64,000 bases of DNA from a candidate division SR1 bacterium Aalborg_AAW-1 (GTDB lineage Bacteria; Patescibacteriota; Gracilibacteria; Absconditabacterales; Absconditicoccaceae): the NCBI GenBank assembly GCA_001007975.1, contig CP011268.1, positions 744,001 through 808,000 on the forward strand, written 5' to 3'. The notes under the pieces are model-generated. The model was not told where the DNA came from, ran no database searches, and saw only the letters and a program-made list of their open reading frames with translations. Positions 36,469 to 37,213 of the stretch are shown piece after piece. How positions within the stretch are numbered: the stretch's first letter is position 1; every line of letters begins with the position of its first letter. The translations under genes were made by a program, and so were the position numbers.

Positions 36469-36860
36469 GGGGATGTGTTGGTTTTGATAGGAGTATCCCA
36501 GTATGATCGATGGCCACCACTCGATGAGCGTACCGAGTCTAAAATAATCGTTCACGCACCAAAAATGCAAACTCTAATCTAAGACTCAACGTAGCAAAGA
36601 AATTCGCTTTCGCTGCTTAGTCAAGTCCTCTTTATGGGGCATAACCCGTCTTGCGTGATCTCTCTACAATCGCAGGGTAGTGGCGCTGGAGATACCCAAG
36701 GTTCTGACTATTACAAAACTTACTGGTCTGACACTATGTCCGTGTAAGTGCTCGTAATAGTACGACTGAAAACAATAACCAGAGTCTCTAAAATAGTGCT
36801 ATAGTGGTACACTGTCCTCATCCTGACTTCTAGACGCGGGTTCGAATCCCGCCATCTCCA
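36469..36860 (+). ncRNA. ssrA: transfer-messenger RNA (tmRNA)
   Basis: The 5' end GGGGATG pairs with 3' CATCTCC as the acceptor stem, and the T-arm gggttcgaatccc is at the 3' end; CCA is not encoded. The tag frame is read as TKNANSNLRLNVAKKFAFAA, ending in TAG at 36618-36620 and in the usual Ala-Ala degron. The tag is about 19-20 residues, longer than the 10-11 of E. coli or B. subtilis type tags. It rescues stalled ribosomes with SmpB. Confidence 0.95.
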
Positions 36861-36912
36861 TGATTAGTAAAGACTAAAAATCATTGCAAACATAATAGTA
36901 TATTCTTATTAT

Positions 36913-37027
36913 ATGGTGTTCTTTCAGGTTACTCCCTCAAAGCATTGCTGTCGTTGAGTCATACCTCAAGCATCTGATAGAGTATAAACTATCTCTACAG
37001 GGGGTGAAAGCAAAAAATATACACCAT
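36913..37027 (+). ncRNA. unidentified structured RNA between tmRNA and tRNA-Val
   Basis: An outer 7-bp stem ATGGTGT (36913-36919)/ACACCAT (37021-37027) encloses a second stem (ttactccc, 36929-36936, with gggggtgaa, 37000-37008) and two hairpins, ttgag/ctcaa (36954-36969) and gatag/ctatc (36976-36993). The 3' end abuts base 1 of tRNA-Val. It has no T-arm, so it is not a tRNA, and lacks the GGAA-loop signature of SRP RNA. Class unknown. Confidence 0.5.
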
Positions 37028-37100
37028 GCGCGATTAGCTCAGTTGGTAGAGCGCAACATTGACGTTGTTGAAGTCAGAGGTTCGAATCCTCTATCGCGCA
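37028..37100 (+). tRNA. tRNA-Val (GAC)
   Basis: Full cloverleaf: acceptor GCGCGAT/ATCGCGC, D-arm GCTC...GAGC, anticodon stem CAACA/TGTTG with loop TTGACGT (anticodon GAC), T-arm AGAGG/CCTCT with TTCGAAT. CCA is not encoded. Confidence 0.97.
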
Positions 37101-37213
37101 TTTTTTTTATTTTTTGAAAAAAGGAGCACAATGCACCTTCGGAATATCGCGCATTTTTTTTATTTCTTGGAAAAAGGAGAGCAATGTCTCCTTCAGAGTA
37201 TTGCGCATTTTTG
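37093..37213 (+). repeat. tandem repeat carrying copies of the tRNA-Val 3' end
   Basis: Three copies of an ATCGCGCA-like box followed by a T-run start at 37093 (in the tRNA), 37146 and 37200 (period 53-54). The two full repeat units carry a hairpin (aaggagc...gcacctt; aaggaga...tctcctt). The second unit shows paired base changes that keep or improve the stem. Confidence 0.75.

Follow-up and report, generated by a model that had tools for sequence, protein, structure and literature searches.

The interval between the tmRNA and tRNA-Val genes of a Patescibacterium almost certainly encodes, at positions 36918–37017 (+ strand), a member of a conserved structured RNA family of about 90 nt that is widespread in phages and is not in Rfam 15. 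Positions are those of the window, that is, the whole 64-kb stretch of DNA analyzed. An earlier reading of the sequence alone had proposed an unidentified structured RNA between tmRNA and tRNA-Val, a proposal now borne out by the match of a covariance model built only from phage sequences and by covariation. What is new is the RNA family, which is absent from the standard RNA catalogue; the claim does not extend to its mode of action. On one tentative reading, the family is a new kind of small phage RNA, either a ribozyme or a regulator, whose two topologies are interchangeable. Huge and T4-like phages would use it within tRNA arrays, inside tmRNA genes and at message 3' ends, and the Patescibacterium would have acquired it between tmRNA and tRNA-Val. 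A widespread, strictly conserved phage RNA that the catalogue does not list would be a new class of functional RNA, and the copy in a genome of the Absconditabacteria type suggests that phages and these poorly known bacteria exchange RNAs. The recurrent placement of the element in tRNA arrays, inside tmRNA and before terminators makes cheap and concrete tests possible.

The tmRNA–tRNA-Val locus

The host genome is a single contig of 1.04 Mb. Under the standard code, TGA interrupts the reading frames of the window, which fits the use of code 25 (UGA = Gly) by Absconditabacteria/Gracilibacteria. On the + strand, the interval 36913–37027 is flanked 5' by a tmRNA gene at 36469–36863 (ARAGORN and Rfam RF00023) and 3' by a tRNA-Val(GAC) gene at 37028–37100 (ARAGORN and Rfam RF00005), so that the coordinates first given for a region wedged between these two genes were right. 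The region had also been described as not coding, and the longest sense frame inside it has only 24 codons (code 25). Just 5' of the interval lies a promoter-like site, TTGCAA-17-TATTAT (36884–36912, + strand), identified by consensus scan only. The scan found four such sites vs 2.2 expected, which is weak evidence; if the site is used, the start would fall past most of the 5' strand of the outer stem described below. Downstream of the interval (37083–37212), the 3' end of tRNA-Val with its T-run recurs twice more at a spacing of 53–54 nt. These repeats are degenerate copies of the tRNA end and are perhaps scars of element integration at the tRNA.

The sequence-only reading could match the RNA to no tRNA, tmRNA or SRP pattern, and the Rfam search concurs. 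At the gathering threshold, no Rfam 15 family matched the element in the window or in 35 phage loci, and relaxing the search to E values up to 10 produced nothing credible, ribozyme families included. No description was found in the open-licence literature, exact sequence strings included, and an earlier description elsewhere is not excluded. Several specific identities were also rejected. A divergent SRP RNA (RF00169) was considered, and the genome contains no SRP RNA, no Ffh M domain and no Ffh/FtsY GTPase domain; the RNase P RNA is located elsewhere in the genome. Similarity to a tmRNA or tRNA remnant does not exceed that of shuffled sequences (p = 0.75 for tmRNA; p = 0.24 for the best of tmRNA and 12 distinct tRNAs), and a weak match to permuted tmRNA spans a gap of over 100 nt.

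As a separate observation, the SRP is apparently missing in the host genome (G000) and in 48 genomes of its family, in which no SRP RNA and no Ffh/FtsY GTPase domain above cut-off were detected; absence of the Ffh M domain was checked in the host's own genome only. That Vampirococcus, like many other CPR bacteria, lacks SRP subunits has already been reported (PMC8080830).

Folding of the interval

All stems named in the sequence-only reading (outer, G/C-rich and hairpins) form when the interval is folded as a single sequence, and four of the helices on the + strand are also found in the family alignment. These are the G/C-rich stem P2 (36931–36937 with 36999–37005) and the hairpins P3 (36941–36943 with 36947–36949), P4 (36954–36958 with 36965–36969) and P5 (36976–36980 with 36989–36993), the last of which is followed by UCUACAG. 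In alignment with 33 phage sequences, the core of the RNA covers about 36925–37010 (+ strand), running from the closing pair C36925–G37010 via AGGUUACUCCCU to AGGGGGUGAAAG.

By folding energy, this structure cannot be told apart from one that an ordinary spacer or a tRNA leader would form by chance. The interval has a z-score of −1.6, and 16 of 200 shuffled sequences are equally stable, which is not beyond chance. Equally good folds are found in 16% of the GC-matched stretches of the window, and 22% of intergenic 115-nt windows reach z ≤ −1.6. A perfect 7-bp closing stem occurs in 20% of shuffles and in 32% of other intergenic stretches. High GC was likewise discarded as a sign of an RNA gene, a content of 40% being reached by 22% of intergenic windows. 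The evidence of the sequence-only reading, a single-sequence fold, could not by itself have shown a structured RNA.

The weakest part of the original model is its 7-bp outer stem (36913–36919 with 37021–37027, + strand). It does fold in the isolated interval, but no columns of the alignment correspond to it, and adding the tRNA trailer to the transcript takes its predicted probability from 0.92 down to 0.00, the U-run of the trailer pairing with the leader. The outer stem, which in the window copy would lie beyond an internal loop, is plausible but unproven. P2 and P4 persist in every context folded.

Homologues in phages and their absence from sister bacteria

Searches among bacterial relatives also seemed to favor a chance fold. 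BLASTN against 59 relatives matched the tRNA alone, and about 30 regions downstream of tmRNA in the host's family contained nothing resembling the element. A covariance model made from the window sequence only (R1) found no further copy in 49 family genomes and none at a credible level in 353 genomes of the class; a weak class-wide match in one genome (G090, E = 0.039) was not confirmed by a better model. When R1 was applied in reverse, 34 of 40 phage loci were matched at E values up to 1 (best E = 9e-12), and its failure in the class genomes is therefore informative for close forms. The window copy is the sole one found among the 353 genomes. The neighboring GTPase gene was used to seek close relatives, and none were found.

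The homologues are in phages. A distant BLASTN search of the spacer against GenBank phages returned a single hit, in LR756500, an uncultured phage of 462 kb, where 40 nt align with 95% identity (E = 1e-8). The shared 20-mer CTGATAGAGTATAAACTATC is present in five IMG/VR contigs, including contigs of 362 and 429 kb, and a looser pattern (CTCCCT, 50–80 nt, ACAGGGGGNGAAA) yielded about 40 more members. The family consensus reads [P1]GGGUGGCUCCCUCAAGGC-loop-GCCGUCGUCAAGGCGUACCUUGAGCAUC[P5]UAUACAGGGGGCGAAA[P1'], and the corresponding window copy reads AGGUUACUCCCUCAAAGC-AUU-GCUGUCGUUGAGUCAUACCUCAAGCAUC-[P5]-UCUACAGGGGGUGAAA. A search pattern free of P2, GGNGTACCTTGAGCATC, also recovers the family, which therefore does not owe its existence to the pattern used first. 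The element is carried by 86 viral records altogether (45 + 41), huge phages among them and some of the copies near-identical. Five loci (L099, L114, L116, L124 and L137) were excluded because they matched the pattern only by chance.

A second covariance model (R3) was built from 33 phage sequences with the window left out. Searched against the 64-kb window, R3 has the element as its only match (71.0 bits, E = 6.8e-14), and the extent of this match defines the element at 36918–37017. An accidental fold, suggested by the unremarkable energy and by the lack of a homologue in sister genomes, is overturned by the phage homology and the covariation described below, and with a phage-only model matching the window it is refuted and no longer a serious contender. 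The sequence-only reading had also proposed comparing the same spacer in related genomes. Sister bacteria lack the stems; homologues and compensatory changes were instead found in phages. A phage is the probable source of the bacterial copy, an origin that is inferred.

Covariation and two topologies

An alignment of 34 sequences (A4; 33 phage sequences and the window) was used to assess covariation. Changes on both sides that keep pairing occur in 21 of 28 base pairs, and the covariation score is 0.408 vs 0.152 for shuffled and at most 0.128 for slid alignments. Support falls on the same stems that the window sequence folds into: the P1 position, P2, P3, P4 and P5 all have compensatory changes in the phage homologues. 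For instance, the closing pair 36925/37010 is C–G in the window and G–C, U–A or A–U in other members, and the outermost pair of P2 is G–C in 27 sequences, A–U in five (window included) and G–U in two, and is never unpaired. Covariation was repeated on the independent set obtained with the P2-free pattern, in which an inner pair of P2 is U–G (18), G–U (5) or A–U (2). All three pairs of P3 vary on both sides in the family, and the hairpin is substituted or absent in some members. In P4, 98.5% of cells are paired despite wide variation in sequence, and five of six pairs change on both sides; all five pairs of P5 vary on both sides in members with the P5 topology. The window's own letters form 7/7 pairs of P2, 3/3 of P3, 5/6 of P4 and 5/5 of P5, in agreement with the energy fold. 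The invariance of CTCCCT, ACAGGGGG and GAAA in A4 was not counted as evidence, because all three were in the first search pattern. The sequence-only reading would have been refuted by a lack of covariation in relatives; covariation is present, the relatives being phages and not sister bacteria.

The core is closed in one of two ways. In topology 1, found in most members with the P5 hairpin, the flanks are brought together by a closing helix, P1 (e.g., CACUGAGC/GCUCAGUG in L096). In topology 2, the strand 3' of GAAA pairs with the strand just before UAUACAGGGGG, forming a pseudoknot with P2, and all four tested pairs of this pseudoknot helix change on both sides. The window copy has topology 1 (C36925–G37010 and P5).

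This architecture bears on the possibility that the element is a self-cleaving ribozyme, with the conserved junction as its active site and interchangeable closing helices. Cleavage would separate tRNAs, trim messages upstream of terminators and nick tmRNA in the pseudoknot region. Small size, a conserved unpaired core, variable closing helices and the lack of a fixed partner are habits of known small ribozymes. The element is small, its unpaired GGUGG, GCAUC, UAUACA and GAAA are strictly conserved, its closing helices vary freely in two topologies (helix-closed and pseudoknotted), and it has no fixed gene partner. However, no ribozyme family of Rfam matches it even at E values up to 10, no cleavage site can be identified, and a cut within tmRNA would need to be tolerated. 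Self-cleavage is a real possibility and a doubtful one.

Genomic context of the family

Context was examined in 48 members. Transfer RNAs lie within 1 kb in 11 of the 48, and all 47 such tRNAs are on the same strand as the element; nearby upstream frames share its strand in 27 of 35 cases. Some placements are flush, with the element directly after tRNA-Ala (L155) or between tRNA-Met and tRNA-Pro (L106), and in L193 it sits amid some 25 tRNAs. In two phages, the element is within the tmRNA gene (L110:753–1218 and L129:6519–6983), where it separates the tag reading frame from the 3' half; the L110 element is bordered by short direct repeats (GAAAAATCC), and L117 and L140 share the flanks of L110 and L129. 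In many other members, the element starts right at a gene's stop codon or shortly past it, and an intrinsic terminator follows within 4–22 nt. Such a downstream terminator is found in 17 of 48 members vs 2.5% of random positions. The upstream gene encodes ribonucleotide reductase in L168 (0 nt from the element) and thioredoxin in L132 (7 nt), and a gp25 baseplate gene lies beyond the terminator in L168 and L126. In four lineages (L095, L107, L118 and L122), the upstream frame terminates inside the P3 hairpin at the same place. The window copy meets this family context, being between tmRNA and tRNA-Val on the same strand.

Three side observations concern individual loci. The proteins encoded upstream in the four lineages (L122:1015–1452, − strand, and its counterparts in L107, L118 and L095) come from unrelated phage lineages and have similar tails, SLKA or SLKD; the L122 protein has a CANCH motif like that of HNH endonucleases and is not recognized by Pfam. 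In three tRNA-rich phages (L089, L102 and L133), the element forms the inner part of a larger RNA; the outer stem of that RNA shows covariation on visual inspection (AACA..ACUCGUG/CACGAGU..UGUU and variants), and a second conserved stretch follows near GGUUUCUAGAGCC. Downstream of tmRNA in L043 (minus strand of the locus), AGCAACC..AAGGTGCTAAATCC resembles a SAM-type riboswitch core, by appearance only.

The element occupies the sense strand and runs in the same direction as the tRNAs, the tmRNA or the reading frame before it. Strand and placement are therefore those of a transcribed RNA in the 3' part or spacer of a larger transcript, and the element is very probably transcribed, an inference made without expression data.

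The position before terminators has been weighed in three ways. The element could be a small RNA that is freed from tRNA, tmRNA or 3' UTR transcripts and acts in trans, for instance by decoying or inhibiting a host factor or a defence system. That it folds autonomously, has a conserved core and occurs mainly in phages would suit such a role, and a pre-terminator position is typical of small RNAs derived from 3' UTRs; embedding in tmRNA is odd for a free RNA, however, and no promoter of its own has been shown, leaving this role rather unlikely. Alternatively, the nascent element might bind RNA polymerase as an antiterminator (like HK022 put or EAR) that lets it cross terminators and long untranslated tRNA operons. 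In favor are the frequent location 4–22 nt ahead of an intrinsic terminator, past which a gene follows in the same orientation, and the untranslated nature of tRNA arrays and tmRNA; but 31 of 48 members have no downstream terminator, and known put elements are located near promoters. Antitermination is judged improbable. A classical riboswitch is less likely still, because the element does not overlap the following terminators in the cases read.

A possible role at RNA ends

No single mechanism is established. The favored reading, possible at best and inferred in the absence of data on expression, half-life or processing, is a structural module embedded in cis whose task is to define or protect RNA ends, with the ribozyme and the trans-acting RNA close behind. 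The element would be transcribed within a longer stable-RNA or messenger transcript, would fold autonomously around its P2-closed core, and would then set a processing boundary and resist exonucleases, such that an RNA end is defined or protected. In the host, the window copy might delimit tmRNA from tRNA-Val within a single precursor, the 3' side of the element being made by RNase P. The sequence-only reading had suggested that the cut freeing the tRNA 5' end would also produce the 3' end of this RNA, an idea that leaned on the outer stem, the least certain of the helices. This role is uncertain because only one cellular genome with the element is known.

An end-defining module fits the embedding of the element in tmRNA, in tRNA arrays and at 3' ends. 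Against it, the messenger cases already have a 3' end protected by a terminator hairpin, tRNAs require no extra stabilizer, and the strictly conserved unpaired letters suggest binding or catalysis rather than mere stability. The explanation as a whole, which combines family identity, placement, an end-protecting module and phage origin, is with its mechanism included no more than a provisional proposal.

Relation to known RNAs

GOLLD and ROOL, which are known from phages and prophages and are often near tRNA genes, offer a parallel in habitat. Like the element, they are structured RNAs whose role is unknown. GOLLD and ROOL have been resolved by cryo-EM as large, ornate RNAs (PMC12286853). They are several times longer than the element, and their Rfam models do not match it. 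The relation to tmRNA (RF00023) is one of position: the element adjoins tmRNA in the window and sits inside the tmRNA gene in L110 and L129, but it is not tmRNA sequence, and the tmRNA model matches its flanks and treats it as an insertion. With the small ribozymes (hammerhead, twister, pistol and HDV-like) it shares small size, a conserved core, variable closing helices and alternative topologies, although no Rfam ribozyme model matches it. Finally, HK022 put and Bacillus EAR are small structured phage or bacterial RNAs that act on their own transcript, as the element would if antitermination were the right reading; in contrast to them, it is positioned at gene ends and in tRNA arrays, not near promoters.
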